A DNA stretch of 64,000 nt from contig JAQWNF010000023.1 in the NCBI GenBank assembly GCA_029246415.1, positions 124,001-188,000 of the forward strand. The letters run 5' to 3'. Origin of the DNA: Glaciecola sp. Lineage in GTDB: Bacteria; Pseudomonadota; Gammaproteobacteria; Enterobacterales; Alteromonadaceae. The notes below the pieces were generated by a model. That model saw nothing but the letters and a program-made list of their open reading frames with translations, did no database searches and had not been told where the DNA came from. The position numbers were made by a program, and so were the translations under genes. Below, one piece after another: positions 3,236-20,589 of the stretch; position 1 is the stretch's first letter, and the number at the start of each line of letters is the position of its first letter.

Positions 3236-4030
3236 TTACTTGCTTTCGCTAGCATTTAAAAAGGCTGGCAATTCACCACCACCATTAAGTAGTAAATTAC
3301 AACCACTAGAATAACTGGCTTGAGGGGATGCCAAAAACAAACACGCATTCGCCACGTCTTCTGGTTCTGCCATCCTGCCTGCAGGAATAGTTTTACACAC
3401 CTTATCAATACCTGCTTCGTCACCATAATGTAAATGCGAATTTTCGGTTTTAACTAAACCAGGACTCAGTGCAGTAACTCGCACTTTTGGTGCCCATTCA
3501 ACAGCTAAGGTTTTTACTAACGATAAGATACCTGCCTTGGCTGCACCATAAGCCGCAGTACCTGGTGATGCACGCAATGCACTAATACTGCCAATAAAAA
3601 TAATACTCCCGCCATCTTCCTGCATTAGCTGGTTAGCATGTTGAGCAACAGTCAATGGTGCAATTAAATTGAGTTTAATGATCGATTCATGAAAACGCGG
3701 TGACGCTTTATCAGCCAATGCAAATGGACTACCGCCGGCGTTATTGACTAATACATCAAGTTTGCCATATTGTTCTTTGATCGCTAAAAATAAAGTATTA
3801 ATACTATCGTTATCTTTTACATCAGCTTGGATAAAGTGCGCTTGGTTAACCTTATTATTGACTGTAACTTGCGGTAGTGCCTCGGGTTCTTTTCGACCAC
3901 AGACTACGACCTTCGCACCAGCAGCGAGAAAACCAGTAGCAATCGCAAATCCAATACCTTTGGTACCTCCAGTTACCAGAACAACTTGATCTTGGTAGTT
4001 TTGTGGTGGGTTAACATTATGTGTCGACAT
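3236..4030 (-). CDS. Short-chain dehydrogenase/reductase, first gene of the steroid side-chain operon
   Basis: A 264-residue classical SDR. It has the Rossmann motif VTGGTKGIGFAIA, the NNAGG motif, catalytic Ser in IFIGSIS, and Tyr/Lys in AAYGAAKAG. The C-terminal SSGCNLLLNGGGE is a typical SDR end. It is the promoter-proximal gene of the leftward operon (52-bp gap to the ChsH2-like gene) and is divergent from the enoyl-CoA hydratase gene. Substrate cannot be read from the sequence. By context it oxidises or reduces a hydroxyl on a steroid or its CoA thioester. A palindrome at 4097-4112 lies 67 bp upstream of the start. Confidence 0.8.
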   Translation of the reverse strand: MSTHNVNPPQNYQDQVVLVTGGTKGIGFAIATGFLAAGAKVVVCGRKEPEALPQVTVNNKVNQAHFIQADVKDNDSINTLFLAIKEQYGKLDVLVNNAGGSPFALADKASPRFHESIIKLNLIAPLTVAQHANQLMQEDGGSIIFIGSISALRASPGTAAYGAAKAGILSLVKTLAVEWAPKVRVTALSPGLVKTENSHLHYGDEAGIDKVCKTIPAGRMAEPEDVANACLFLASPQASYSSGCNLLLNGGGELPAFLNASESK

Positions 4031-4096: not shown

Positions 4097-4112
4097 TCGT
4101 CTATATGGACGA
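4097..4112. promoter_or_regulatory. Putative operator of steroid regulon, site 1 (best copy)
   Basis: TCGTCTATATGGACGA is an inverted repeat with five-base arms TCGTC/GACGA and a nearly self-complementary centre. It lies between divergent SDR (4030) and enoyl-CoA hydratase (4198) genes. Very similar 16-mers occur at 10704, 12434, 12594 and, weaker, 6352, always upstream of steroid cluster genes. The binding protein is unknown; a TetR-type repressor would fit the size and symmetry. Confidence 0.6.
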
Positions 4113-4197
4113 TGCTGGCATTATTGACTAAACGTCACAATAGCCTAGTGTATACAAAGCTTGCCTACAGCACGTTAAAACCATTTTGGAGATACTA

Positions 4198-4983
4198 ATG
4201 CCTGATTCACAAGAGCCCGTTGTCATACTGAGTTTTCCTGAGGACGGTGTGGCTGAGCTTAGGCTGAACCGCCCACATGCAACCAACGCGCTTAGTTTAG
4301 AGTTACAAACACTTTTGTCCGAGCATTTCTTAGCGCTCGCTGATAATCCGTCGGTACGCTGTATTTTGTTAACCGGTGGTGACAAAGTGTTTGCCGCTGG
4401 CGGTGATATTACCGGCTTGATTGATGCTGACCCTATCGAAATATACCAACGCCATACTGAGCGTTTGTGGGCGCCTATCGAACAATGCCCTAAACCCGTC
4501 GTTGCTGCCGTAAACGGCTATGCGTTTGGTGGCGGCTGCGAATTAGCCATGCTGGCTGATATCATTATTGCAGGAAAGAGCGCGAGTTTCTGCCAACCCG
4601 AAATAGCTATTGGCATTATGCCTGGTATTGGTGGTACTCAACGGTTAGTCAGAGCTGTGGGCAAAGCCAAAGCTATGCAAATGGCACTGACAGGTAAACC
4701 TATCAGCGCACATGATGCTTGGATAGCGGGTTTGGTCAGTGAACTATGTGAGGACGAAGACGTGCATGCACAAGCGTTAGCTAACTGTCGCCGCATTGCT
4801 CGCATGCCACCTCTTGCAGCCGAACAAATTAAAGAAGTGATACTGGCCGGTATGGACGCGCCATTAGCTAGTGCAATGGCGCTAGAACGAAAAGCCAATG
4901 CGATTTTGTTTGCGTCACAAGACCAGCGTGAAGGGATGCAAGCATTTTTAGAAAAGCGCCACCCTAAATTTATGGGGAAATAA
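4198..4983 (+). CDS. Enoyl-CoA hydratase/isomerase (crotonase family)
   Basis: 261 residues from the ATG at 4198, which follows TTGGAGAT. A crotonase fold is shown by GGDKVFAAGGDI (oxyanion hole) and by GGGCELAMLADI and PEIAIGIMPGIGGTQRL, which carry the two catalytic glutamates of true hydratases. The length matches EchA-type enzymes. It would hydrate enoyl-CoA intermediates in side-chain or ring beta-oxidation. It is monocistronic, divergent from the leftward side-chain operon, and followed by a good rho-independent terminator at 5027. The exact substrate is not readable. Confidence 0.85.
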   Translation: MPDSQEPVVILSFPEDGVAELRLNRPHATNALSLELQTLLSEHFLALADNPSVRCILLTGGDKVFAAGGDITGLIDADPIEIYQRHTERLWAPIEQCPKPVVAAVNGYAFGGGCELAMLADIIIAGKSASFCQPEIAIGIMPGIGGTQRLVRAVGKAKAMQMALTGKPISAHDAWIAGLVSELCEDEDVHAQALANCRRIARMPPLAAEQIKEVILAGMDAPLASAMALERKANAILFASQDQREGMQAFLEKRHPKFMGK

Positions 4984-5026
4984 TCATTTACCTTATTTTA
5001 CACAAACAATATTGAGTGTACCTTGT

Positions 5027-5047
5027 GCCAGCTTTTGCTGGCTTTTA
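5027..5047 (+). terminator. Rho-independent terminator after enoyl-CoA hydratase gene
   Basis: GCCAGC-TTTT-GCTGGC is a six-base-pair GC-rich stem directly followed by TTTTA. It lies 44 bp after the hydratase stop and before the convergent MFS gene. Confidence 0.8.
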
Positions 5048-5061
5048 TTATGACCGCTTAA

Positions 5062-6258
5062 TCATGAAGTGATATGTATTGGGCTAATCTCGCCAGTTTT
5101 AGTACGACTTTGCAGACGAGCCAGTGGCCAAATAAAACATCCAATCGCAACCACACTAGCAACAAATGCCAACACCAATATTTGGTAATACCCTGATGCA
5201 GCTAACCAACCACCCATTGCAGGGCCTATCATAGCACTCAAACCAAACGCGGCAGGGATTAACATAATAGCCCGACCTTTCGCATCCAGTCTCGCCACTG
5301 CTGCGGTCTGAAACACGCATCCCCATGTGAATGCGACTTCCCAAATCCATGCACCCATAGCAAATAACATGAACTGATTAGTTGTACTGTTAAAAGATAG
5401 CCAGATCAAATATAAACCAATAGCAAGCACACACAATACGATTACATATGGTAAACGTAAGCCTATACGAGCACCAATCAACGCAACAGAAAACGCCGCA
5501 GCACCGCCTAATAGTTTAAGTACGGCAAACACCGTTCCCATTTCAGAAGAACTTAACGCTATTGCATTACCCATGCGTTCCAAGAATGCCCATAACGCAA
5601 TATTACCTGTTGCAAACACTAAAAACACCAACAATGCCAACCACGCACCAGTAGGAATATTTAGTTGTGCTTTTATGCTGTTATCAATTGATTCTAAATG
5701 GGTATCTTTAGGAAGCCAAAACACGCTAAGGCTCAGGAGTGCGATAATTAACGATAGACTGACGGCTGCACCGGCATAAGCATACTGACTGATCACATAA
5801 GCAGGAAGAACAAATAAAACTAAAGCTGTTACCCCTAATTCAATCCCTTGCCTGACGCCTAATGCACGTTCTTTATTTGCCATTTGTCCAATAATTCGTA
5901 AACCCAGACAAGTCATTAGGGCAGCAAAAAAACCGATCCCTCCCCATAAAGGCATTTGTAATATAGCATCAGATAATGACGACGCGAGCAATAGAAGTAT
6001 GGAGCACAGTGAGGAGACTAGCGTGAGCCGGCGTAAGCAGAATCGATTAATTATCAAGACCGATGATAATGTCCCCAGTAAATAGCCCGCAAAACATATC
6101 GACCCGAGTAGGCCCACTGTTTGTAACTCAAAACCAAACGTATCCGCTAGCGAGCCAAGTAAAATAGGTAAGGAATTAAATGGTAATCCGCCAATGGTTG
6201 ACGCAAAACTGGCAGCCAATATTAAAGCTGCCGTTTGTTTAGTCGTTGTTTGCATCAC
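5062..6258 (-). CDS. MFS transporter
   Basis: 398 residues with about twelve hydrophobic segments, the usual size of an MFS permease (for example LLGSICFAGYLLGTLSSVLII and WLALLVFLVFATGNIALWAFL). No subfamily signature tells the substrate. Its position between the hydratase and the LuxR-type regulator, inside the steroid cluster, suggests uptake or efflux of a steroid or a steroid intermediate. The start could be either of two adjacent Met codons. A degenerate copy of the cluster operator lies 94 bp upstream. Confidence 0.8.
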   Translation of the reverse strand: MMQTTTKQTAALILAASFASTIGGLPFNSLPILLGSLADTFGFELQTVGLLGSICFAGYLLGTLSSVLIINRFCLRRLTLVSSLCSILLLLASSLSDAILQMPLWGGIGFFAALMTCLGLRIIGQMANKERALGVRQGIELGVTALVLFVLPAYVISQYAYAGAAVSLSLIIALLSLSVFWLPKDTHLESIDNSIKAQLNIPTGAWLALLVFLVFATGNIALWAFLERMGNAIALSSSEMGTVFAVLKLLGGAAAFSVALIGARIGLRLPYVIVLCVLAIGLYLIWLSFNSTTNQFMLFAMGAWIWEVAFTWGCVFQTAAVARLDAKGRAIMLIPAAFGLSAMIGPAMGGWLAASGYYQILVLAFVASVVAIGCFIWPLARLQSRTKTGEISPIHITS

Positions 6259-6351
6259 GTATCCTCAAGTAAATTGTAATTCAGCTTGCTGTATAATTCA
6301 GCCTACTGAGTTGTATTTTTACTAGAATCAACCAATATTCAACAAGATACA

Positions 6352-6367
6352 TGGTGCAGATGGACTA
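6352..6367. promoter_or_regulatory. Possible weak operator copy, site 5
   Basis: TGGTGCAGATGGACTA matches the site at 10704 at 12 of 16 bases, but only the right arm (GACTA) is well kept. It lies 94 bp upstream of the MFS start and overlaps the stop codon of the LuxR-type gene. Low confidence on its own. Confidence 0.3.
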
Positions 6368-7528
6368 TTCGCACTCAGGAGATTCATCATATCCAAGGGC
6401 TGCAACACTATTTAAAAATAAACGAACTAATTCAGTTTGACGACGTACACCCGTCTTTGAAAAAATAGAACGTAAATGAGCTCTTGCAGTATTACGTCGA
6501 ATATTCAACACTTCTGCCGCTTCTTCCAAAGACAAGCCATTAGTGAGTTGCAATGTTAAGCCTGTTTCAGCTGGTGTTAGGCCAAACAATTTTTTGGAGA
6601 TATCGATACTCGTTGTCGATTTTCCAACTGCGTCACGAATATAAACGACGGCACGTTTCTGACCTTTACCCTCACCCCATTCCAAACCTGGTATTACTTC
6701 AATGACTACGCCTAAAGCAATTTCACCTGATGGTCTCGATATAGACATTGCTTCTGGCATCGAATTGATATCATTATTATGTTCAAAGGCAGTTTTAATG
6801 AGTCGCTTAAGTTCACTATTGTCACTGTGATGTTGAGCTGTCAATTTACCTGCAGTAATTTTAAGCCCATCAGGCTCGGCTAATAAATGGCTAGCAAAGA
6901 CGTTTTTATCTAGCACTTTACCTGTTTCATCAATTGTAACAGTCGCAATTGAAAGCCTACCAATGGCTCTGGAATACAAAGAACCCAAAGAAGCACTGCT
7001 GTGTAACTGCAAAAACGTCGATAACGAACGGCGTAAATGTGGAATTAGAAACTTACAGAGTGTTTTATCCGAGTCAGAGAAGTTACCTAGTGCTTCTTCA
7101 CGTGTCACCCTAAAACGAAAATTGCCCAAGTTTGGTGTGCTAATATCGACGCTCATCACATGGTAGACATCGTTCACTGCGCACCAATGCTTACGATACG
7201 AGCTCGTTTCCCATTCTTTTTCATCCATAAAATCGCTCACCGTAAATACCGTATCAAGGGGTTGGTCAGTAAATGGAGTAAGTTTGTATTGATAAGGCAG
7301 ATTTTGAACGCTATGTCCGCCTTCAATATTCTTACCTACCGCCACCATTAATCCTAAATCATCTTCTTCCGGTACTTTAAGAATAAGCGTAACGTAATTA
7401 GCGTGGAAAATATCTTGTAATATTTTAAGCGGTTTACTCCAACTTTCCGAGGTCGCGTCCCCTGCCGCATCATACAATAAGTTAATAAATTCGTTATACT
7501 GCTCAAGCTCTATATCTATTAGTGCCAT
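6365..7528 (-). CDS. LuxR-family transcriptional regulator (TeiR-like size and context)
   Basis: A 387-residue protein. The C-terminal GerE/LuxR helix-turn-helix spans about residues 315-375 (FGLTPAETGLTLQLTNGLS...EAAEVLNIRRNTARAHL). The N-terminal 300 residues have no receiver domain and look like a PAS/GAF-type sensor region, with PAS-like TVTIDETGKVLDKN. The architecture and length resemble TeiR, the LuxR-type activator of steroid degradation in Comamonas; that link is by context, not by alignment. It is in the same direction as the MFS gene, 106 bp upstream of it. A LuxR dimer could bind the cluster palindrome, although LuxR sites differ from it. Confidence 0.75.
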   Translation of the reverse strand: MALIDIELEQYNEFINLLYDAAGDATSESWSKPLKILQDIFHANYVTLILKVPEEDDLGLMVAVGKNIEGGHSVQNLPYQYKLTPFTDQPLDTVFTVSDFMDEKEWETSSYRKHWCAVNDVYHVMSVDISTPNLGNFRFRVTREEALGNFSDSDKTLCKFLIPHLRRSLSTFLQLHSSASLGSLYSRAIGRLSIATVTIDETGKVLDKNVFASHLLAEPDGLKITAGKLTAQHHSDNSELKRLIKTAFEHNNDINSMPEAMSISRPSGEIALGVVIEVIPGLEWGEGKGQKRAVVYIRDAVGKSTTSIDISKKLFGLTPAETGLTLQLTNGLSLEEAAEVLNIRRNTARAHLRSIFSKTGVRRQTELVRLFLNSVAALGYDESPECE

Positions 7529-7652
7529 AATCCGGTTAGCCTGTTGTTATTTGTCATTAAAACGTTAACATAAAGATTAATTCATAACGATATCATAACT
7601 TTGTCGCTATATTTAGCTTTCTTTGCTCAGTCTGATAATATAGACAAAAGTT

Positions 7653-8726
7653 TTAAGCCTTGGGGTAATCAGAATAACCTGATATACCTGGCGTATATAG
7701 CGTTTTTCGGTCAAAATCAGCAAGTGGTAAATCTGCAGCAATTCGTTCTACAAAATCAGGATTGCTCACATAATGCCTTGCAAATGAAACTGCATCGGCT
7801 TGTTTATTATTAATGGCTTGCGCGGCGAGATTTGCATCAAAACCATCATTAATAATTAATGAACCGATAAACTTTTCCCTACCAATTTTAAATGCATCGA
7901 TTGATTCAATTGGCGCACGCATCATATGTAAATAACCGAGGTTAAGATCTGTCACTTCATCGAGCAAAGCGATGTGAGTTTGTTCTGGATCTGCGTCTTT
8001 TGTATCATTAAAACGATTGCCAGGGTTCATACGCAGACCGACACAACCAGCACCAAACACAGTGGCCATAGCGCGTAAGCACTCAACTGCAAACTTGATT
8101 CTGCCTTGGACACTTCCTCCAAACTCATCGGTGCGTTGATTCGAATCTGAGCATAAAAACTGCATTGGTAGATAACCACTAGTACAGTGTAACTCAACAC
8201 CATCAAATCCTGCTTTTAATGCATTTTCAGCAGCTTGTCGATGCTCTTCAATTACTTGCCAAACTTCCTGGGTACTTAATTCTACAGGCATATCAAAGGG
8301 CTGCATCCCTGCACTATCGGTATGAACCTCACCTCTTGCTTGAATTGCTGAAGGTGCAACAGTCGCGACATTTTCACCTTTGATGTGATGCGAACCAATC
8401 CGGCCCGCATGCATTATTTGCAATACAATTTTACCGCCAGCTTGATGCACTGCATCGGTAACAGCACGCCAGCCTGCAATGTGTTGTTCAGTTTCAATAC
8501 CAGGTTGACGGTTATATGCTTGCCCTGCAGCTACTGGCCAAGTACCTTCCGCTACAATTAACCCTGCACTTGCACGCTGTGCATAGTAATCGCGCATAAT
8601 ATCATTTGGTGTTCCATCGGGATCAGCACGATTTCGGGTCATCGGTGCCATAACCACTCTGTTTGCAATGTCTATAGCACCGAGTTTTGCGGCACTAAAC
8701 AATGAATTTGTCTGTGTCATACTCAT
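7653..8726 (-). CDS. Old Yellow Enzyme family flavin-dependent ene-reductase
   Basis: A 357-residue TIM-barrel FMN oxidoreductase of the NemA/OYE class. Evidence includes NRVVMAPMTRNRA at the N-terminus, QIMHAGRIG, and SNQRTDEFGGS. In the active-site loop the usual H-x-x-N/H-G-Y reads HCTSGY at 180-185: His180 and the proton-donor Tyr185 are kept, but the second substrate-binding residue is Ser183. In this cluster it probably reduces an enone of a steroid ring or side chain. It lies 10 bp downstream of an SDR gene and is surely co-transcribed with it. Confidence 0.85.
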   Translation of the reverse strand: MSMTQTNSLFSAAKLGAIDIANRVVMAPMTRNRADPDGTPNDIMRDYYAQRASAGLIVAEGTWPVAAGQAYNRQPGIETEQHIAGWRAVTDAVHQAGGKIVLQIMHAGRIGSHHIKGENVATVAPSAIQARGEVHTDSAGMQPFDMPVELSTQEVWQVIEEHRQAAENALKAGFDGVELHCTSGYLPMQFLCSDSNQRTDEFGGSVQGRIKFAVECLRAMATVFGAGCVGLRMNPGNRFNDTKDADPEQTHIALLDEVTDLNLGYLHMMRAPIESIDAFKIGREKFIGSLIINDGFDANLAAQAINNKQADAVSFARHYVSNPDFVERIAADLPLADFDRKTLYTPGISGYSDYPKA

Positions 8727-8736
8727 TCCTTAATTT

Positions 8737-9507
8737 TTAATCTAGCGCAGTTACCAATACACATCCCCGTCCACCATCAACGGGTAAACTTGCACCAGTA
8801 ATATAAGACGCATCATCGCTAGCTAAAAAGGCAATCGCACTAGCGAGCTCATCACTGCGTCCGACTCGGCCCATTGGGATCAGTCTATTGGTGTTGTTTA
8901 GCATACCTTCGTCACTTAGCATACCGGCAGTAGCGGGAGTTTCAACTACTGCAGGGACAACAACATTAACACGGATATTTTTGCTGGCACCCTCTGCAGC
9001 GGCTGCACGAGAAAAATTAACTACCGCCGCTTTTGAAGCGCTATAACCAGCCATCATTGGGGTACCTAACTCTCCACAAATAGAGGATATATTGACAATC
9101 GCCCCACCCGTTTCCTGCATTAACCGCATCGCAGTGCGAGTGCCCCAAAAGGTCCCATCTACAGAAGTCGTAAAGTTACTATGCCAATCTTCGGTACTCG
9201 TATCAATAATGCTGCCATAGGAAAAAGCCATCGCATTATTGACCATGATATCTAACCCACCATGCTCTTTCGCTGTGTTTTCTATAGCTTGTACAAATGC
9301 AAGCTCATTACTAACATCAGCTTGCACAGCATAAGCTTTGCCGCCATCGCTGCGGATTGCAGCGACAACCTCATCAAGCGGTGCTTGACGACGACCACAG
9401 ATGATCACCGTTGCGCCTTCTTTGGCTAAGCGTTGTGCCGTTGCTGCTCCTATCCCACTTCCGCCACCGGTGACAAAAGCGATTTTATTCGTAAAACGTG
9501 CCTGCAT
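8737..9507 (-). CDS. SDR family oxidoreductase, hydroxysteroid-dehydrogenase-like
   Basis: A 256-residue classical SDR. It has VTGGGSGIGAATA for NAD(P) binding, NNAMAF in place of the usual NNAG, catalytic Ser in IVNISSICGE, Tyr/Lys in AGYSASKAAV, and a C-terminal ITGASLPVDGGRG. It is followed after 10 bp by the OYE gene. By family and context it is a hydroxysteroid dehydrogenase candidate; the position oxidised cannot be told. Its start follows AGGAGTTATCC. Confidence 0.8.
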   Translation of the reverse strand: MQARFTNKIAFVTGGGSGIGAATAQRLAKEGATVIICGRRQAPLDEVVAAIRSDGGKAYAVQADVSNELAFVQAIENTAKEHGGLDIMVNNAMAFSYGSIIDTSTEDWHSNFTTSVDGTFWGTRTAMRLMQETGGAIVNISSICGELGTPMMAGYSASKAAVVNFSRAAAAEGASKNIRVNVVVPAVVETPATAGMLSDEGMLNNTNRLIPMGRVGRSDELASAIAFLASDDASYITGASLPVDGGRGCVLVTALD

Positions 9508-9587
9508 GGATAACTCCTATTATTTTTGTAGGTAAGATGTATGAACATTTAACGATTTTTATTATTGAAATCGACCTCAAACACATC

Positions 9588-10637
9588 TTATGCATATTTG
9601 AGACTCAGCTCGCTGGTTAGAGGCACTGCCTGACAACTCAAGGTTAAATTGTTGTTTAAATCTTTTTCATCAAGTACATCGTTATTCTTAAGCTTAACTT
9701 TCCCATTAAGAATTTCGCACATACAAGATGCGCACATACCTTCACGGCACGAATAAGGCAGTTCAATACCTATTTTTTCAGCAGCATCAAGTACTGTTTC
9801 GCCTGGCTCACAAGGAATGACATAGTGTTCACCGTCTAACTCCAATTTTACAGTAGCCGCAGGGAAATCCTGAGTGTCAGTTACAGCTTCAGCATTGATA
9901 GTATTTAATGGCGAGTCATTTGTCGTTGAGGACGGTTTAGCGATAACAAAACGTTCAATATGAATCCGTTCTTTTGACATACCAGCAAGATGTAAAGCCA
10001 TCTCCATGGTATCCATAAAAGGACCAGGCCCACAAATAAAGGCTCTTGCATCGTCCATCCCCTTTGCTAAAGAAGACAATAAGGTTGTGGACGGGATACC
10101 TTGCAGTGAATCGAGTAAATGAATCACTTGTAAGCGTTCCGGATACTCAGCAGCAAGCGTTTTTAGTGTCTGTTTAAAAATGACTGATGATTCATCTCGG
10201 TTGGCATAAATCATTCGTACCTTACCGGTACCATTAACCAACACATTGCGTAAAATTGATAATATCGGTGTAACGCCACTGCCTCCTGCACACAAAAGGT
10301 GATCTTCAGATAAATCTTTACTGATGAATAGTCCTGCTGGCTGCATCACTTCAATCTGGCTGCCTGCTTTCAAGTTATCGCAAAGCCAGTTTGAGCCTCT
10401 GCCATTCACCACACGTTTCACTGTGACCCGTAACTGGTCATCAAGATGCGGCGTACTAGACATTGAATAACAGCGTTGCAACGATTCTTCGTTAAACTTA
10501 AATTTAAGGGTAATAAATTGACCCGATTGATAATTGAATTTTTCGCGCACGTCTTCTGAAATATCAAATAATATGGAATGTGCATCGGCGGTTTCTTGCA
10601 CCACTTGGGCAACTTTAAGCATGTGATAACGCGCCAT
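9588..10637 (-). CDS. kshB: KshB-like 3-ketosteroid 9-alpha-hydroxylase reductase component
   Basis: A 349-residue three-domain reductase. It has an FAD domain with RCYSMSS (55-61), an NAD domain with GGSGVTPIL (118-126) and ICGPGPFMD, and a C-terminal plant-type 2Fe-2S domain with Cys297, Cys302, Cys305 and Cys335. GSNWLCDN (81-88) is a feature I associate with KshB proteins. KshB passes electrons from NADH to the Rieske oxygenase KshA, which opens ring B together with KstD. No KshA is in the window. Phenylacetyl-CoA epoxidase reductase (PaaE) has the same layout but sits with other paa genes, which are absent here. It is divergent from an SDR across the operator at 10704. Confidence 0.8.
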   Translation of the reverse strand: MARYHMLKVAQVVQETADAHSILFDISEDVREKFNYQSGQFITLKFKFNEESLQRCYSMSSTPHLDDQLRVTVKRVVNGRGSNWLCDNLKAGSQIEVMQPAGLFISKDLSEDHLLCAGGSGVTPILSILRNVLVNGTGKVRMIYANRDESSVIFKQTLKTLAAEYPERLQVIHLLDSLQGIPSTTLLSSLAKGMDDARAFICGPGPFMDTMEMALHLAGMSKERIHIERFVIAKPSSTTNDSPLNTINAEAVTDTQDFPAATVKLELDGEHYVIPCEPGETVLDAAEKIGIELPYSCREGMCASCMCEILNGKVKLKNNDVLDEKDLNNNLTLSCQAVPLTSELSLKYA

Positions 10638-10703
10638 GATTACTCCTATAAATACTTTCTTTTAATTTGGTCTTAGGTTTTCATAAACACCACTGTGACT
10701 TCA

Positions 10704-10719
10704 TCGTCAATATGGACTA
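10704..10719. promoter_or_regulatory. Putative operator of steroid regulon, site 2
   Basis: TCGTCAATATGGACTA, in the gap between divergent kshB-like (start 10637) and SDR (start 10778) genes, matches site 1 at 14 of 16 bases. Its distance to the leftward start codon, 67 bp, equals that of site 1. Confidence 0.6.
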
Positions 10720-10777
10720 AGCATTTTCAGGCTGTATAGTAAATATTAGAGGTACCAATGGTTTTGAAGGATTATAT

Positions 10778-11530
10778 ATGCAAAGGTTTAACAATAAGGT
10801 GGTATTTATCACTGGCGCTGCTTCGGGTATAGGACGTGAGACTGCAGTTAGATTAGCGTCAGAGGGAGCCAGTCTATCGTTGTGTGATATTGATGAGAAA
10901 GGTTTAGGTGACACACAAAAAGCATGCGAAGAACAGGGTGCGAAAACCACAATTTATCGTTGTGATGTTGCTAATTATGATGAATGCGTCAATGCGATGG
11001 ATGCATGTATTTCACACTATGGTCAGCTCGACGTTTTATGCAACATTGCAGGTATAGCACAGATGCAGCATTTTACCGATATAACCCCTGCACAGTGGCA
11101 CAACATGCTTGGCGTTAATTTATCGAGCGTGTTTTATTTATGTCAATTAGCGATGCCCCATTTAATCAAAACAAAAGGCAACATTGTCAATATGGCCTCT
11201 TCAGCAGGATTGGTCGGTCAGGCTTATACATCATCTTATTGTGCCACGAAAGCGGCAGTTGTGAACTTGTCTAAATCATTGGCAATTGAATATTCCGCAC
11301 AATCGGTAAGAGTCAATGCACTATGCCCGGGTAATGTTAAGACCCCACTCGCAGCGAAACTGAATATCCCAGATGACATCGACAAACGTTTACTTGGGCG
11401 AATGTTTCCGTTGCTTGAAGCTGCACAAGCAAGTGAAATAGCTGCTGCGGTAGCATACTTAGGCTCTGATGAAGCACGGTTTATTACCGGAGCGACGTTA
11501 CCTATTGATGGTGCACAAACGGCAGGATAA
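10778..11530 (+). CDS. SDR family oxidoreductase
   Basis: A 250-residue classical SDR with ITGAASGIGRETA, CNIAGIAQ (an N-x-A-G variant), catalytic Ser in NMASSAG, and Tyr/Lys in SSYCATKAAV. The C-terminus is ITGATLPIDGAQ. The start follows a GAAGGATT ribosome site. It is transcribed alone, divergent from the kshB-like gene, and convergent with the next SDR. Likely a hydroxysteroid dehydrogenase by context; the substrate is unknown. Confidence 0.8.
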   Translation: MQRFNNKVVFITGAASGIGRETAVRLASEGASLSLCDIDEKGLGDTQKACEEQGAKTTIYRCDVANYDECVNAMDACISHYGQLDVLCNIAGIAQMQHFTDITPAQWHNMLGVNLSSVFYLCQLAMPHLIKTKGNIVNMASSAGLVGQAYTSSYCATKAAVVNLSKSLAIEYSAQSVRVNALCPGNVKTPLAAKLNIPDDIDKRLLGRMFPLLEAAQASEIAAAVAYLGSDEARFITGATLPIDGAQTAG

Positions 11531-11557
11531 AAGATTTAACTCGCATCTAATATCTAG

Positions 11558-11589
11558 TAGCTATCGACACATCTCTATGTCGATAGCTA
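11558..11589. terminator. Hairpin between convergent SDR genes
   Basis: TAGCTATCGACA and TGTCGATAGCTA form a perfect 12-bp stem with an 8-base loop, 28 bp after the rightward SDR stop and overlapping the stop codon of the leftward SDR. There is no clear T-run, so it may act as a bidirectional barrier rather than a classic terminator. Confidence 0.5.
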
Positions 11590-12379
11590 GTTGTTGCGCA
11601 TTTATGGTACGACATTGCAATTTATCAGCCTCTTTATGAGTAGCAATCCACAGTAATATGTCTGCAATTATCTCAGGCTCAACGACAGCTTGACCAAGAG
11701 CTTTAATCCCTCGATTACCCAGTGTCACACGTAGAGTTTCGGTATTAACCACTCCTGGATTAACGGTAAATGCACGTATACCTTGCTTACCATGCTCGAT
11801 ATTTATGATTCCTGATAAACGTGATACAGCTGCTTTGCCAGCACCATATGCATATCCCCACCCACCATCAATTGCAGCGATGGGCGGATCTTTTTCTCCA
11901 GCACCGGAAGTAATATTGATAATACACCCCGACTGCTGTTCAAGCATTTTAGGAATAAGCATTTGCGAAATTTGCACAGGAGCAAAAATATAAGCTTTTG
12001 ATACCTTATCTAAAGTATCAGGTGTAAGGTCTAATAACGGCACATTAAGGTCTGGCCCTTGATATATAGCATTATTGACTAATACATCTACAACGCCAAA
12101 GTGAGACAGCGTTTGTTCAACTGCAGTATGAACAGAGCTTGGGCTAAGTAAGTCCATCTTTATCGCTAGCACTTCTACACCAATTGTCTTAATCACCCTA
12201 ACAGTATCTAACAGGCTACCGACTGCATAATTGCTATGAGTTATCTTATTGCGTTGTAGTTTGTCATTATCAAACTCTCTAGCGGTGATAGCAACGTGAA
12301 ATCCAGCTTTAGCAAATGCAATTGCTGTAGATCGCCCTATTCCCCTACTAGCACCAGTAATAAAAGCAACTTTATGCAT
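11561..12379 (-). CDS. SDR family oxidoreductase, extended-loop type
   Basis: About 272 residues from the ATG at 12377-12379, which has AGGAG 10 bases upstream; a GTG three codons earlier is less likely. It has ITGASRGIGRSTA, NNAIYQGP, catalytic Ser in NITSGAG, and Tyr/Lys in YAYGAGKAAV. The insert after the glycine-rich motif (residues about 32-65) resembles SDRs of the hydroxysteroid dehydrogenase-like 2 type. It is divergent from the TonB receptor gene, with two operator-like sites between. Substrate unknown. Confidence 0.75.
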   Translation of the reverse strand: MHKVAFITGASRGIGRSTAIAFAKAGFHVAITAREFDNDKLQRNKITHSNYAVGSLLDTVRVIKTIGVEVLAIKMDLLSPSSVHTAVEQTLSHFGVVDVLVNNAIYQGPDLNVPLLDLTPDTLDKVSKAYIFAPVQISQMLIPKMLEQQSGCIINITSGAGEKDPPIAAIDGGWGYAYGAGKAAVSRLSGIINIEHGKQGIRAFTVNPGVVNTETLRVTLGNRGIKALGQAVVEPEIIADILLWIATHKEADKLQCRTINAQQLAIDIEMCR

Positions 12380-12433
12380 TGTAAACACTCCTATTTATAC
12401 CGAAAAACATACCGCAAAAAAAATCACTTACCA

Positions 12434-12449
12434 TCGTTTAAATGGACGG
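12434..12449. promoter_or_regulatory. Putative operator of steroid regulon, site 3
   Basis: TCGTTTAAATGGACGG, 55 bp upstream of the leftward SDR start, keeps the CGT...ATGGACG core of site 1. It is in the same intergenic region as site 4. Confidence 0.5.
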
Positions 12450-12593
12450 TAACAATAAATTTACAATGTGGTCTATCCAGTATAGGATGTTGTCAAGTCT
12501 CTTAACCAATATTTAAATAATTACTGTTTTTTCATAAGGTTAGATTGTTTTAGACCGAAATACTTAAAGCTTGATAAACAAGATCAAATTAAC

Positions 12594-12609
12594 TAGTCCG
12601 AATAGACGT
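12594..12609. promoter_or_regulatory. Putative operator of steroid regulon, site 4
   Basis: TAGTCCGAATAGACGT; its reverse complement ACGTCTATTCGGACTA aligns with sites 1 and 2 with both GTC/GAC arms kept. It lies 118 bp upstream of the TonB receptor start. Confidence 0.5.
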
Positions 12610-12726
12610 ATCTGTGGAAAATATTTTGTACAAAAATCACAATAACAAAAATAACATTTTGTTAACAGAACAATAAGGCGTTGATCTACTCGTCAATTGC
12701 ACAAGATATCAATCCAGGAGAATATT

Positions 12727-15066
12727 ATGAAGAATATTGGTCACCAAACTAAATATAAGTCTATTAAGCCATTAGCATTTGCGATTACTTGTGCTTTGTC
12801 GGGAAATGCTTACTCGCAGCAAGAACAACCTACCGAATCAGAAGCTGATAAAGCCTATGGTGTTGAACGTATATCAGTTACAGCACAAAAACGCGTTACG
12901 CCATTGCAAGAAACACCCATTGCGATTTCTGCATTTAACAGTGAAACTATTGAAAAACTGGGGATTGAGGATGTCTCTGATTTAAATAATCTGGCCCCAA
13001 ACACCCTAATCGTTGCTCCAATAGGCAGTGCATATAATGTCGGAGTAAATATTCGAGGTATAGGAACAGCCTCACCATCACTAGCGATAGATCCTAAAGT
13101 GGGTATTTATGTTGATGGCGTTTATTATGCGCGAAATGTAGGTGCTATTCTAAGTATTGTTGATCTAGAAAGAGTGGAAGTACTGCGTGGTCCACAAGGT
13201 ACACTTTGGGGTAAAAACACGACCGGTGGTGCCATCAGTATGGTTACAAAAGGGCCTGCTGATGAATTTGGATTTAGTCAGCGTTTCACTGTAGGAAATT
13301 TTGGATTAAAAAGTTCTCTTACTTCTATTGATACTGGAGAAAAAAATGGTTTTTCTGGTAAATTCACATACCTGAAAAGTGAAGAAGATGGTTGGGCAAC
13401 TAACGAATTTGTTGGTGCTAAAGAAAAAGATTTAGGTGCTAAAGAAACTGACGCGATTCGTATTGCTTTACAATACGAAACTGATAAATTAAAAGTTAAT
13501 TATACCTATGACAACACTGACGGAAGTGCTGTTTCAATACCTGTGCAAGTCAGTAATGTTCGTCCTTATTTTACTGACCCTACAGTACCCACTCTACATA
13601 TGGGTACGGGTGTGATGTATGGTGGTAACGTCTTTGCACAAATGTCACAAAATGAATTTACAGGTGGTCGACAAGAAATATTTGAACTTGATCAACATGG
13701 TCGAGAGTATGTAGAAATCTCAGGGCATTCATTAAATGTAGAGTGGGATTTTGCTGCAAATCATCGCTTGAAATCGATTACCTCATCCCGTAAATACTCC
13801 TCTGATATTCCAGATGGAGTTGATTCTGACGGTGGCGCTTATTTTGGGGCTGAGCTTGATGCAACATACCAGCCTACAGGTAACTTTGGCCCTATTCCTG
13901 CTTTTCATTTCTATAACAAAAAATCTCAAGAACAAAAATCTCAAGAGTTCCAATTTTTAGGAAATTTCATGGATGGTAAACTTGAATATGTTGCTGGCTA
14001 TTTCTACTTTAGTGAAGAAGGTGAAGAGAATAACCCTTGGGAAATTGGCATTTTTACAGGACAAGGTGCGAATTTATTATTTGATGATCCATTAGCTTGG
14101 GGTGGTTTTTATCAATCAAAATCTGATGCAACAGCGTTATTTGCACAAGTTAATTATGATATAAATGAAAAATTAAATGTATCAGTAGGTATTCGTAATA
14201 CCAAAGACGAAAAATCGATTACCCAACTAGCTGCTCCCGATCCTATGTTACGTAATGATAAAAGCGCTAAAGAAGATTGGAGTAAGACAGTTGGTTCAAT
14301 CGTAGCTAATTATGTACAAGACGACAATACAACTTACTATGCCTCAATCTCTCAAGGTTATGCTGCTGGCGTATATAACCCTGGTACCGTAGACCGTTTT
14401 GCTTACTTAAACCCTGCTAACATGGGGGAAGCAATTTATGATGGTAGTTTAATTCCGGGTAACCCTGAAGATACTACTGCTTATGAAGTTGGCTCAAAAA
14501 TGTTTTTATTAAACGACCGTTTAATGTTAAACACAGCCATATTCATGAACGACAATACTAACTTATTAGTCACAGTATTTGACGGTACTATTCAACGCGC
14601 TCTGAATTCGGGTGAGTCAGAAACCATTGGTTTTGAATTAGACGCGCAATTTGCAGTTACTCCTGAACTTTCACTTAGCGCGAGTTATGGCTACCGAGAT
14701 ACCGATTACTCGCTTGAGGAATTTACTGACGTAGACACCTTTTCAGCGACGTTTGGACTTGATTGGAATATTGCCGAATTTGAATATGGTAATATGAACT
14801 TGAATGTTAACTATGTGATGAACGATGACAATCAGTTTAATAACAACGATCCAACTCTAGTCGGTGAAGCGTACAATTTACTCAATGCCCGTTTGACCTT
14901 ATCTGATATTCAAGTTGGTCAAAGATCAAGTCTCAAAGTATCACTGTGGGGTAAAAATATAACTGATGAAGAATACACATTACATGGTGCAAACTTCAGT
15001 TTTTATGACACTCATGTGTATGGTACTCCAGCAAGTTTTGGTTTAGATGTTAGTTTTACTTACTAA
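12727..15066 (+). CDS. TonB-dependent outer-membrane receptor
   Basis: 779 residues from the ATG at 12727, which follows CCAGGAG. There is a signal peptide (LAFAITCALSGNAYSQQ). A plug domain begins at about residue 50 (ERISVTAQKRVTPLQETPIAISAF, ...VEVLRGPQGTLWGKNTTGGAISMVTK), then a 22-strand barrel ending in an aromatic residue (LDVSFTY). The TonB box is not obvious. The family (PRR-type TonB receptors of marine Proteobacteria) often imports hydrophobic or bulky nutrients. Here it probably imports a sterol or bile acid. The upstream gap holds two operator-like sites, and a strong terminator follows. Confidence 0.9.
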   Translation: MKNIGHQTKYKSIKPLAFAITCALSGNAYSQQEQPTESEADKAYGVERISVTAQKRVTPLQETPIAISAFNSETIEKLGIEDVSDLNNLAPNTLIVAPIGSAYNVGVNIRGIGTASPSLAIDPKVGIYVDGVYYARNVGAILSIVDLERVEVLRGPQGTLWGKNTTGGAISMVTKGPADEFGFSQRFTVGNFGLKSSLTSIDTGEKNGFSGKFTYLKSEEDGWATNEFVGAKEKDLGAKETDAIRIALQYETDKLKVNYTYDNTDGSAVSIPVQVSNVRPYFTDPTVPTLHMGTGVMYGGNVFAQMSQNEFTGGRQEIFELDQHGREYVEISGHSLNVEWDFAANHRLKSITSSRKYSSDIPDGVDSDGGAYFGAELDATYQPTGNFGPIPAFHFYNKKSQEQKSQEFQFLGNFMDGKLEYVAGYFYFSEEGEENNPWEIGIFTGQGANLLFDDPLAWGGFYQSKSDATALFAQVNYDINEKLNVSVGIRNTKDEKSITQLAAPDPMLRNDKSAKEDWSKTVGSIVANYVQDDNTTYYASISQGYAAGVYNPGTVDRFAYLNPANMGEAIYDGSLIPGNPEDTTAYEVGSKMFLLNDRLMLNTAIFMNDNTNLLVTVFDGTIQRALNSGESETIGFELDAQFAVTPELSLSASYGYRDTDYSLEEFTDVDTFSATFGLDWNIAEFEYGNMNLNVNYVMNDDNQFNNNDPTLVGEAYNLLNARLTLSDIQVGQRSSLKVSLWGKNITDEEYTLHGANFSFYDTHVYGTPASFGLDVSFTY

Positions 15067-16992: not shown

Positions 16993-17436
16993 TTAGATAA
17001 ACATATTGAGTTGTTCCAGCATATGACCAAATATGCGACCACCTCGCACAGGCTCTCCCATGATAATTTGATTACCTGCCCAACCATGATCAGTTCCATC
17101 ACCATTGGATGTTAAGGTTCGACCAAATTCTGATTGGGTAAATGTCACAACGTTCTGACTCAAACCCCGAGCTTGCAGATCCGCATCAAATCCAGCCATC
17201 GCTAGGCTTAATGTTTGCTGTAATCGTGGTAACAAATACGCTTGGTTATCATGGGCATCAAACCCTCCCAACGAAGCAAAAAATACCTGACGTGATTGCC
17301 CCAAAGTAGATTGTGCCGCAATCAATTTTGCTATTGTTTGTAATTGCAGAGCTAAATCATCGCTAGAGCCATAATCTACAGTCGTTTGCGCTATAGGTGT
17401 TAAAGCTGCGCTGAGATTAGCGTTATTTTCACGGAC
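16993..17436 (-). pseudogene. Truncated DUF1501 gene remnant (paralog of the gene at 19206-20558)
   Basis: The leftward reading frame gives VRENNANLSAALTPIAQTTV... through HGWAGNQIIMGEPVRGGRIFGHM. It aligns without frameshift to the C-terminal part of the intact DUF1501 protein nearby. After GHM it jumps straight to LEQLNMFI and stop, where the intact protein has about 50 more residues before its own QLNLFV end, so an internal in-frame deletion removed part of the C-terminus. The 5' two thirds are missing: the frame ends exactly at the left end of the IS element, and no DUF1501 sequence resumes beyond its right end. Confidence 0.85.
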
Positions 17437-17777: not shown

Positions 17778-18631
17778 TAAAGTACCAGTTTATTAATGAT
17801 TACCGACTTCAATTTAAGACTAGGGTGATGTGTCGTATCCTTAGGGTCCATCCGTCTGGGTATTATGCCTGGGTGCACAAGCCTTTATCGGATAGTGCAG
17901 TAGATGATTTGCGACTATTCAAGGTGATAAAAGACTCATATGAAGCGAGTCATCGTGTTTATGGATATCAGTGAGTTCATTTAGACCTTCGTGAGACTGG
18001 CGAACTAGTTGGACCCAATCGTGTGTTCAAAATCATGAAACAGCATGATATCAAGGCTGTTCGTGGTTATAAGATCCATAAATATGGCTACGGTAGGCCT
18101 TCTATTATTACCCCCAATCACTTAAAAAGAGAATTTGATGTCGCTCAACCTAACGAGGCTTGGATTACCGACATCACTTACGTGAGAACATGGCTGGGTT
18201 GGCTTTATTTAGCCCTCGTTATTGACCTCTATTCTCGAAATATAGTGGGCTGGTCAATGAAACCAACACTTGCCAAAGAAATAGTTATTGACGCATTGTT
18301 AATGGCTGTTTGGCGCAGGAAACCTAAAGCCAAAGTATTGGTACATTCCGACCAAGGCTCACAGTATGGAAGCGATGAGTGGTACCTATTTTGTCGTGAG
18401 CATAACTTAATGCCAAGTATGAGTCGAAAAGGAAATTGCTGGGATAATGCAGTCGCAGAATCTTTTTTTAGCAGTTTAAAAAAAGAGAGTATCAAAAAAC
18501 GCATCTACAAAACTCGTGACTTAGCTCGAGCAGACATTTTCGATTACATCGAAATGTTCTACAATAAAACAAGACTAAATACCTACCTTGGTGCTATCAG
18601 TCCAGAGCAGTTTGAACAAGCCTCAAATTGA
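17747..18631 (+). pseudogene. IS3-family OrfB DDE transposase, nonsense mutated
   Basis: After a -1 shift at the A6G site the frame reads through VKYQFINDYRLQFK and SGYYAW to YGYQ, then TGA at 17972-17974, then VHLDLRETGE. The rest (open from 18023) is an intact rve integrase core with TDITY, VHSDQGSQYGS and NAVAESFFSSLKKE supplying D, D and E. Arg is expected at the TGA (CGA to TGA). Without read-through no full transposase can be made. Confidence 0.85.
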
Positions 18632-18781: not shown

Positions 18782-19252
18782 ATGCAAGCACTGCCACATC
18801 AATATAACGTTCATGCTGAAGCGCATTCGGATAATCGATTAACTGTGAAGGTTGACAATTTGGATGAACTCGCGATTGCTCCACCGCAAAATTTTGGTGG
18901 ACCCGGCGATCAATGGTCTCCAGAAGATCTGTTCATGGCATCCGTCGCAAGTTGCTTTATATTGTCGTTTCGTGCGATTGCGCGTGGCTCAAAATTAAGC
19001 TGGTCATCCTTGAACTGTTCATCCCAAGGCACATTGGAAAAAGTAAATGGGGTATTAAAATTCACTAATATCGTCACTTCAGTCTCATTAACCATCCCAA
19101 CATCAGAATCACCAGATACTGCACGACGTATTCTGGCTAAAGCCGACAAAAGCTGTTTAGTGGCAAATTCATTAAACTGTGAGATCAAGTTGGAGATTGT
19201 CGCAATCACACAAACAGATTCAACTGACCTTGGTCGAAGCGGTACAGATTAG
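18782..19252 (+). CDS. OsmC/Ohr family peroxidase-like protein
   Basis: A 156-residue OsmC-like protein. Both redox cysteines are visible: ASVASCFILSFRAIA at about residue 57 and KSCLVANSL at about residue 124. The family reduces organic hydroperoxides using lipoyl or thiol reductants in the cytoplasm. Its 3' end overlaps the 3' end of the convergent DUF1501 gene by 47 bp. The start follows ATCGGAGTATCACC. Confidence 0.85.
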   Translation: MQALPHQYNVHAEAHSDNRLTVKVDNLDELAIAPPQNFGGPGDQWSPEDLFMASVASCFILSFRAIARGSKLSWSSLNCSSQGTLEKVNGVLKFTNIVTSVSLTIPTSESPDTARRILAKADKSCLVANSLNCEIKLEIVAITQTDSTDLGRSGTD

Positions 19253-20558
19253 GAAATATTTCGTTGATTTCGCTTTGCCCTAACCCAAACCAAGCAGCAA
19301 GCTCGCCACCAAATTGATCAATCGATGTTGTAGGGATAATCCGTCCATCCCCCAAATCATCTTGGCTGTTAATTATTTGCGAAGGCATGTGGCCATAAAT
19401 CCGCCCTCCCCGCACCGGCTCACCCATGATAATTTGATTTCCCGCCCAACCGTGATCAGTACCATCGCCATTGGAGGTTAATGTGCGACCAAATTCAGAC
19501 TGGGTAAACGTCACGACGTTTTGACTTAATCCTCGTGCTTGTAAATCGGCATCAAAACTTGCCATGGCATCACTTAGCGTGCGTTGTAACCGAGGTAGTA
19601 AATACGCTTGATTATCATGCGTGTCAAAGCCACCAATCGACGCAAAAAATATTTGGCGCGATTGTCCCAAGTTCGACTGAGCAGCAATCAGTTTAGCAAT
19701 CATTTGTAGTTGCCCCGCTAAGTCGCTAGTCCCATAATCAACTGCCGTGTTAGCAATCGGTTCAAGAGCTGCACGTAAACTTGCATTATTCGCACGTACA
19801 TCGAGGATCTTTTGGGCATAAGCTTGACTAAAAATATCTTGAGTCGCATTCACCATCCGCAAATGGTGCTCCATTCTCCCCCGATCCCAATCATAAGCAG
19901 GATTGAGCCCACCAAACTGTTCGACACCTTCGGTGTTCATCGAGTAATGTTGTGCAATACGGCCACTTTGAAATTGGTTTGTTCCACCTAAACTAAAGCT
20001 TAACGGTAGGCGTTGCTCGGTATCCATTAGCAGATCGGCCATCCTCCCGCCCCAGCCTGACGTATTATTAGTATCGAGCAAGCCACTCTGCCACAATGCT
20101 TGTTGGTCATTATGCGAAAACAATTGTGGGGGTTGTACACTAGTATTATTATTGAGCTCTTGTTTGGTTGCAGGGGCAACCATCGGCCCCATGTTACTGA
20201 CAATGGACGCCCGCCCATTATTAAACAAGGTTTGTAACGCACCAGCATCCTTATGCACACTTAGATCCATCACATCAGTTTGGTTGAGACTGACTAAATC
20301 GGATTGAGCGTAGGCTAACGATTGGCGAGTACGAGCGTAATCTTGATAATCGCTACCGCTACTAGGCACGACTAAATTAAAACTATCGTGGCCACCATAT
20401 AAAAAGATACACACCATCGCTTTATAATCACTAAACCGACGCGCATAATTAGCCCCTGCTAATTGGTTAGCTAATTGCAACTGCCCTGCTAAACCTGTAG
20501 ACGTAGTTAATGCACCAATGGAAGCAAGTGAAGCTTTTAAAAATTGACGTTTGTTCAT
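19206..20558 (-). CDS. DUF1501 family exported protein
   Basis: About 450 residues from the ATG at 20556-20558 (MNKRQFLKASLASIGALTTS), after a GGGAAAATAT ribosome site. The N-terminus resembles a signal peptide with a KRQFLK motif close to a Tat signal but lacking twin Arg. The alkaline-phosphatase-like DUF1501 fold shows FLYGGHDSFNLVVPSSG, SIGGFDTHDNQ and FGRTLTSNGDGTDHGWAG. It is 31 bp downstream of a DUF1800 gene; the pair is widely conserved and of unknown function. A shortened paralog remnant lies at 16993-17436. Confidence 0.85.
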   Translation of the reverse strand: MNKRQFLKASLASIGALTTSTGLAGQLQLANQLAGANYARRFSDYKAMVCIFLYGGHDSFNLVVPSSGSDYQDYARTRQSLAYAQSDLVSLNQTDVMDLSVHKDAGALQTLFNNGRASIVSNMGPMVAPATKQELNNNTSVQPPQLFSHNDQQALWQSGLLDTNNTSGWGGRMADLLMDTEQRLPLSFSLGGTNQFQSGRIAQHYSMNTEGVEQFGGLNPAYDWDRGRMEHHLRMVNATQDIFSQAYAQKILDVRANNASLRAALEPIANTAVDYGTSDLAGQLQMIAKLIAAQSNLGQSRQIFFASIGGFDTHDNQAYLLPRLQRTLSDAMASFDADLQARGLSQNVVTFTQSEFGRTLTSNGDGTDHGWAGNQIIMGEPVRGGRIYGHMPSQIINSQDDLGDGRIIPTTSIDQFGGELAAWFGLGQSEINEIFPNLYRFDQGQLNLFV

Positions 20559-20589
20559 ATTTTCCCTCATCAACCTTATTAAATTATGA

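Follow-up and report, generated by a model that had tools for sequence, protein, structure and literature searches.

A conserved palindrome in the gaps of a Glaciecola steroid degradation cluster as the probable operator of a LuxR-type, TesR/TeiR-related regulator

We analysed a 64,000-nucleotide stretch of the Glaciecola sp. genome (contig JAQWNF010000023.1, positions 124,001 to 188,000; hereafter the window), which carries part of a steroid degradation cluster. The divergent promoters of this cluster share a 16-bp palindrome, TCGTC-N6-GACGA, and the original prediction read it as the operator of one regulator. The palindromic sites, the genes that we propose as their targets and the gene of the candidate regulator are as follows (window coordinates).

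4097-4112, unstranded: putative operator TCGTCTATATGGACGA, between the short-chain dehydrogenase/reductase (SDR) gene 3236-4030 (minus strand) and the enoyl-CoA hydratase gene 4186-4983 (plus strand)
10704-10719, unstranded: putative operator TCGTCAATATGGACTA, between the ferredoxin reductase gene 9588-10637 (minus strand) and the SDR gene 10778-11530 (plus strand)
12434-12449, minus strand: putative operator TCGTTTAAATGGACGG (leftward CCGTCCATTTAAACGA), before the SDR gene 11561-12388 (minus strand)
12594-12609, plus strand: putative operator TAGTCCGAATAGACGT, before the TonB-dependent receptor gene 12697-15066, on the same strand as etfBA and upstream of it
3236-4030, minus strand: SDR, first gene of a leftward run with the site 66-67 bp upstream; proposed target
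4186-4983, plus strand: enoyl-CoA hydratase; proposed target
9588-10637, minus strand: oxygenase-type ferredoxin reductase, first gene of the run that includes the luxR-type gene; proposed target
10778-11530, plus strand: SDR; proposed target
11561-12388, minus strand: SDR; proposed target
12697-15066, plus strand: TonB-dependent receptor; proposed target
6365-7528, minus strand: LuxR-type regulator and TesR/TeiR homologue of 387 aa with GAF-like and PAS-like parts and a LuxR helix-turn-helix (HTH); proposed operator-binding protein

The four sites were found in the sequence where they had been placed, with at least one in each of the three divergent gaps. Sites 4097, 10704, 12434 and 12594 deviate from TCGTC-N6-GACGA by 0, 1, 2 and 2 mismatches, and the spacing of 67 bp to two leftward start codons is correct (4097 minus 4030; 10704 minus 10637). 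Site 10704 heads the leftward run from 10637 to 6365, which includes the luxR-type gene, and autoregulation is therefore possible. A fifth, weaker site proposed at 6352 (TGGTGCAGATGGACTA, 6352-6367) was dropped, as its 10.3 bits in the matrix described below equal the coding background. It overlaps the stop codon of the luxR-type gene, and its equivalents reach 9.9 bits in genome G142 and 7.6 bits in G118. With up to two mismatches, the bare pattern is not enriched in the window (15 places versus 12.6 expected; 29 of 100 shuffles had as many), so that a fuller motif was needed for testing the claim.

We therefore used a matrix built from the four good sites and scanned 122 kb of the home genome (2.96 Mb, 46 contigs), namely C6:66001-124000 joined to the window (C6:124001-188000). 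The best 11 matches were C6:128097 (site 4097, the highest-scoring of the 122 kb), 113693, 134704, 87603, 108033, 87706, 136434, 83340, 69435, 136594 and 113667. Ten of them lie in gaps and C6:69435 lies at the edge of an open reading frame (ORF), while the next six matches are coding and just 8% of the stretch is non-coding. Seven of the 11 are outside the training set (six in gaps, one at the start of hsaA), and all 11 fall inside one 67-kb steroid cluster. We take the hsaA ORF at C6:69435 to be over-called, with its true start 111 bp further in. The newly found sites adjoin homologues of hsaA, hsaB, hsaC and hsaD (NCBIfam); the HsaA, HsaB, HsaC and HsaD models match cluster proteins, all under their curated equivalog cut-offs. 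Further neighbours, named by reading the sequences, are MFS-like, metallo-hydrolase-like, aldehyde-dehydrogenase-like and SDR-like genes. Among the best 30 matrix matches none lies before etfB in the window, as had been noted; elsewhere, the etf genes are preceded by a site in Vibrio and, at a distance of about 0.3 kb, in a Comamonas-like genome.

Genome-wide, the relaxed consensus WMGTCYNWWWNGACKW occurs exactly at 17 places. Eight of them fall in the 67-kb steroid cluster, which makes up 2.3% of the genome; the count is partly circular because the consensus was drawn from cluster sites. The remaining nine places all lie within ORFs of at least 100 aa. Pfam scans of five of these ORFs identified a peptide deformylase, a class II tRNA synthetase, a glycoside hydrolase 97 and a CxxCxxCC protein, with no match for the fifth (199 aa). 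The enrichment expected before steroid genes was thus borne out in location, that is, in the gaps of the steroid cluster, and not in the total genome count against a reversed-pattern control. The palindrome is genuine and is not confined to the window.

Orthologous promoters carry such sites in other bacteria too: in a second genus, in Endozoicomonas, in betaproteobacteria and on a plasmid of Vibrio. The SDR/enoyl-CoA hydratase gap that holds site 4097 also carries one in G142, G118 and the Glaciecola metagenome-assembled genome (MAG) L080, and again on the Vibrio alfacsensis plasmid, in Parazoarcus (G515) and in the Comamonas-like genome (G1004). Site 10704 is kept in G142, G118 and L080, and the site before the TonB-dependent receptor (12594) in G142 and L080. 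G142, whose luxR-type gene is 92% identical, has 13 sites of at least 12.3 bits (12 in gaps, one at the hsaA start); two strong sites were found on the 19-kb contig of G118. In G115, a member of another genus with a 59% identical luxR-type gene, the 13 best matches of 160 kb (at least 14.4 bits) fall within a rearranged steroid cluster between 1941116 and 2009453, 12 in gaps and one in the early part of a seemingly over-called hsaA ORF. The V. alfacsensis plasmid has sites in the enoyl-CoA hydratase/SDR gap, before the hsaA homologue and before etf-luxR, and a fourth (13.6 bits) inside a gene. In Parazoarcus (5.0 Mb), all seven exact TMGTCYRNNYRGACGA places lie within the 109 kb of its steroid cluster (C111:3594-112410), five in gaps as called and two in short ORFs (115 and 123 aa); TMGTCYRNNYRGACGA was drawn partly from L103, itself part of that contig. 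Taken together, the consensus reads about TMGTCYAWWTRGACKA, and T[AC]GTCCRNNYGGACGA in GC-rich genomes.

Some of these loci have features of their own. Outer-membrane-like, RND-like and repeat-protein genes, as read from their sequences, lie near operator sites in G115 (L067, C1:1947379-1959605); a comparison with the larger ORFs in the 122 kb from Glaciecola gave no homologue of them at E<=1e-10, and they are possibly a steroid transport set. The 174-kb Vibrio alfacsensis plasmid (L127), with its steroid-type cluster, LuxR-type regulator and three gap sites, has an annotated addiction module inside the stretch. On a Sphingobium plasmid (L130), an alphaproteobacterial LuxR homologue (33%) accompanies a cluster annotated with a ketosteroid hydroxylase, and the palindromes in gaps at 6724 and 22256 are weak (14.7 and 13.9 bits).

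To relate the sites to promoters, TATAAT matches of at least 4/6 were counted after the site in gene-facing directions and compared with 1000 shuffles. In AT-rich genomes (G000, G115, Vibrio, Endozoicomonas, G672) the -10 matches peaked at offset 23 (15 of 43 directions; median over offsets 3.5). GC-rich genomes showed the same peak (29 of 72 directions, with 11 more at offset 24; median 0), and neither peak was reached in any shuffle. An earlier set of 78 directions, which included near-identical Glaciecola promoters, also peaked there (24 of 78). In the window, site 12434 is followed by a -10-like TATGTT at offset 23. TG follows the site in 41 of the 62 directions with a -10 at offsets 22-24, versus 21 of the 53 without (Fisher 0.005). 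Given a 17-bp spacer, the peak at offset 23 would put the middle of the site at -42.5 and its final base at -35; the promoter sequences suggest a position around -42.5, typical of class II activators.

This geometry bears on the mode of action. The LuxR-type protein might bind the site as a repressor or as a dual regulator: in C. testosteroni, a hydroxysteroid dehydrogenase gene is reported to be repressed by a LuxR protein (PMC6678751), and several Burkholderiaceae genomes hold two to four paralogues. Both the position of the site relative to the -10 element and the description of TesR/TeiR as a positive regulator (cited below) speak against this, and we consider it unlikely.

The spacing is also more in keeping with an activator bound ahead of -35 than with a repressor site, which is one of several points that count against a TetR-type protein. 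Palindromes of 16 bp are typical of TetR operators, and, by analogy with actinobacteria, a KstR/KstR2-like repressor that leaves the operator on binding a steroid-CoA ligand has to be weighed as its owner. TetR repressors do govern the pathway in actinobacteria (PMC6678751). However, only three TetR_N genes were found genome-wide, none of them in C6:66001-188000; the matrix scored at most 11.3, 3.6 and 4.5 in the 3-kb loci around them; and the motif tracks the luxR-type gene instead (see below). A TetR owner is accordingly very unlikely. The original prediction had left the choice between a LuxR-type and a TetR protein, and because no TetR gene is in the cluster and just three were found in the genome, the LuxR-type candidate is strongly favoured.

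The candidate gene, 6365-7528, is placed within the steroid degradation cluster by the HsaA-D model matches and the gene layout. In the cluster, some of whose genes were scanned against a library, one LuxR-type and one AraC-type regulator gene were noticed. The closest homologues of the LuxR-type protein (92-96%) are from Glaciecola MAGs. Its C-terminal HTH matches Pfam GerE (E 4.6e-5; 27.8 bits in the Comamonas-like homologue) and corresponds to AlphaFold helices 308-378. In our reading of the model (mean pLDDT 75, pTM 0.49), a GAF-like part is followed by a long helix, then by a PAS-like part and finally by the LuxR HTH. Neither the AlphaFold model nor the Pfam scan revealed a kinase-like domain, and Pfam gave no match to an acyl-homoserine-lactone autoinducer-binding domain, the N-terminus being modelled as GAF-like plus PAS-like. 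Foldseek returned phytochrome-type and PAS structures as well as VqmA, all at low TM-scores; a sequence search of the PDB gave eight weak matches (E 0.04-0.95), seven of them on the HTH.

We then collected 45 non-Glaciecola loci (L082-L126) via the LuxR protein alone and searched them for TCGTCC-N4-GGACGA with at most one mismatch, using 59 permuted halves as control. The site was present in 42 of the 45 loci, versus a permuted mean of 3.5 (one permutation reached the maximum of 25), and in all 23 non-Burkholderia loci (permuted mean 1.7, maximum 7). Across the loci, 11 sites were exact and 70 within one mismatch, versus means of 0.2 and 3.8. In the Burkholderia group, TCATCCGATYGGACGA is found at the luxR ORF start or a short way upstream in 18 of 22 loci; in the Pseudomonas group, the nearest site is at most 100 bp from the luxR end, before the next gene, in 11 of 16. 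Conversely, G163, where no relative of luxR reached E<=1e-30, served as the one regulator-lacking control: it has 16 homologues of steroid genes (42-77% identical) and zero sites (12 bits or one mismatch) across 60 kb. Two steroid-homologue fragments without luxR (G306, G389) also have no sites, but both are too short to carry weight. Loci of 14 distant luxR relatives (L133-L144, L146, L147; about 3.5-4.1 kb each; E 1e-51 to 1e-31; 12 at 25-39% by BLAST, two without a BLAST match) held no site of at least 15 bits, the best reaching 14.9 and 13.3. That is, the motif tracks the LuxR-type gene.

Among the same loci, Pseudomonas/Halopseudomonas genomes carry tandem LuxR-type homologues, three in L095 and L099 and two in L096, L097, L098 and L125. 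The palindrome near the tandem homologues reads TAGTCTGCGCAGACGA in L095 and L099, possibly a shifted specificity. The Burkholderia homologues of L105-L124 (37-39%) mostly have the palindrome upstream, and these stretches have no cluster homologue of at least 45%, L106 excepted. Many Burkholderiaceae genomes contain two to four luxR-type paralogues.

Two other cluster proteins could in principle bind the palindrome. The AraC-type protein (C6:116863-117927) is encoded within the cluster, and a 13.3-bit site precedes its gene in G142. AraC proteins usually bind direct repeats, however, and the genes called in the 160 kb surrounding the 13-site G115 cluster include no homologue of at least 40%; we consider this candidate very unlikely. 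HsaB (L017:2783-3760, that is C6:87783-88760) has 325 aa, with a C-terminal extension beyond the flavin reductase. This half resembles, in our reading, a winged helix of the MarR type joined to the reductase, and could be the DNA-binding regulator: MarR proteins bind palindromes, and homologues of 324-330 aa accompany the motif in G000, G142, G115 and G617. Yet residues 3-309 align to a two-domain 4-hydroxyphenylacetate hydroxylase reductase model (below its cut-off), whose extra domain we take to be ligand-sensing rather than DNA-binding, and Pfam names the flavin reductase part only. Moreover, 20 of the 22 Burkholderia-group loci lack any cluster homologue of at least 45%, yet 18 have the site at luxR. 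We regard HsaB as a very unlikely owner.

The LuxR-type protein, in turn, could be linked to a described regulator. A ketosteroid isomerase search for C. testosteroni gave at best 50% identity in 398 Burkholderiaceae genomes, and one genome at 81% in an order-wide sample of 298. This Comamonas-like genome (G369 and G1004 are one and the same; the 81% refers to a C. testosteroni ketosteroid isomerase sequence) has a tesB homologue, a long run of cluster homologues, an scdJ-like thiolase and then the LuxR homologue (45%), about 36.5 kb from the ketosteroid isomerase gene. The thiolase and the other scd names follow our own pairing with homologues. In C. testosteroni TA441 the cluster runs from tesB through tesR, with the ketosteroid isomerase about 38 kb away (PMC13101464), and by gene order the Comamonas-like LuxR homologue occupies the tesR position of this published cluster. 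Within 200 kb, 11 places at 14 bits or one mismatch were found, 10 of them in gaps, including the gap before tesB and the hsaA/hsaB-homologue gap. The latter corresponds to the tesA2/tesA1 gap, the runs being identified by their following genes. The runs tesB-tesR, tesA1-tesG and tesA2-ORF18 are reported to be TesR-dependent (PMC6895838), and TesR/TeiR is described as a positive regulator of steroid degradation (PMC6678751, PMC6895838, PMC8399759). At the HTH end, the window protein and the Comamonas-like homologue share 57 of 74 residues, versus 110 of 302 in the rest. A paralogue (L145) of the tesR-position homologue (L132) has a 15.1-bit site about 0.26 kb upstream. The operator had been read as that of a regulator which no known steroid motif explains; the proposed regulator is not of a new kind, being a homologue of C. 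testosteroni TesR/TeiR. This type of regulator is known already; a limited literature search, covering few subscription papers, found no published TesR/TeiR operator.

From the computed site distribution, the conservation, the co-occurrence with the gene and the preferred -10 spacing, we infer that the palindrome is very probably the operator of the LuxR-type regulator 6365-7528, a TesR/TeiR-homologous activator of the steroid cluster. The regulator would respond through its GAF-like and PAS-like sensory part to a steroid or a steroid metabolite, dimerise, and bind the palindrome with its C-terminal LuxR HTH. The dimer would be centred near -42.5 from the transcription start, with the promoter-proximal half (GGACGA-TG) abutting the -35 element, and would recruit RNA polymerase as a class II activator. 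In a divergent gap, a near-symmetric site could serve both promoters. The regulon would comprise the 9,10-seco steroid cluster and, within it, the run to which the regulator gene belongs.

Several observations weigh against this interpretation. The whole-genome pattern counts are not above the reversed-pattern control, the signal lying in location. Three Burkholderia loci (L110, L124, L126) have no site within one mismatch, the tesR-position homologue has none within 1.5 kb (the nearest is 2.8 kb away), and the regulator-lacking control is one cluster. The directions of the -10 test include related promoters, several from Pseudomonas, and are not all independent; in the Comamonas-like genome just 3 of 13 directions have a -10 (at least 4/6) at offsets 22-24, and the best -10 offsets of the window range from 19 to 24. 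With 23.4 bits, the GerE match of the window protein falls just short of the Pfam cut-off of 23.5. TeiR has been described as a polar membrane protein that works through a kinase (PMC6678751, PMC8399759), in conflict with our interpretation. The luxR-type gene could also be a passenger, with another factor binding the site. On balance, the evidence supports the prediction of one regulator's operator that is found mainly in front of steroid genes and is shared by related clusters.

In a broader form, which we hold to be reasonably probable, complete aerobic steroid catabolism would be under the control of a single operator-regulator pair in many Beta- and Gammaproteobacteria, whether the genes are chromosomal or, as in Vibrio, on a plasmid; a soluble GAF-PAS-LuxR steroid sensor would recognise a conserved box at -42.5 and activate the main operons directly. 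If true, the membrane-kinase model of TeiR would be replaced and a portable steroid-responsive promoter gained. A defined operator would make the regulon readable from sequence and marks transferred steroid clusters; it also makes the proposed kinase mechanism of TeiR testable and suggests an activator-operator pair for steroid biosensors. Apart from the steroid genes, the window contains, just past the etf genes, a truncated DUF1501 copy near an integrase-core (insertion sequence-type) transposase ORF (16993-17325 and 18023-18631); the copy resembles part of the longer gene 19206-20573.

Among the closest known systems is TesR/TeiR of C. testosteroni. It has the C-terminal LuxR-type HTH in common with the window protein, and the regions reported to be TesR-dependent (PMC6895838) begin beside the palindrome in the Comamonas-like genome; the comparison was made through the Comamonas-like homologue. 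Unlike tesR, the window gene does not close a tesB-type run, and whereas the published protein is a polar membrane protein with kinase signalling, we find no kinase domain in the model and propose direct operator binding. Pseudomonas stutzeri Chol1 has two TeiR-like genes in its steroid cluster, and deleting one delayed cholate degradation (cited as unpublished in PMC8399759, the available part of which describes no operator); homologues are present in the Pseudomonas loci analysed here, strain Chol1 not being among them. VqmA likewise combines PAS with a LuxR-type HTH, and Foldseek matched the VqmA-ligand-DNA complex 6ide (E 2e-5), but with a low TM-score (0.20 on the query); VqmA has a single PAS part and a quorum-sensing ligand. 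In actinobacteria, cholesterol catabolism clusters are likewise controlled through dispersed palindromes, the KstR/KstR2 operators, but KstR and KstR2 are TetR repressors, of which the Glaciecola cluster has no gene. The lux box differs from the palindrome in sequence, and the sensory part here is GAF/PAS-like, with no acyl-homoserine-lactone domain match. The proposed arrangement nonetheless resembles lux box-type class II operators, with a palindrome near -42.5 that abuts the -35 element and a C-terminal LuxR HTH.

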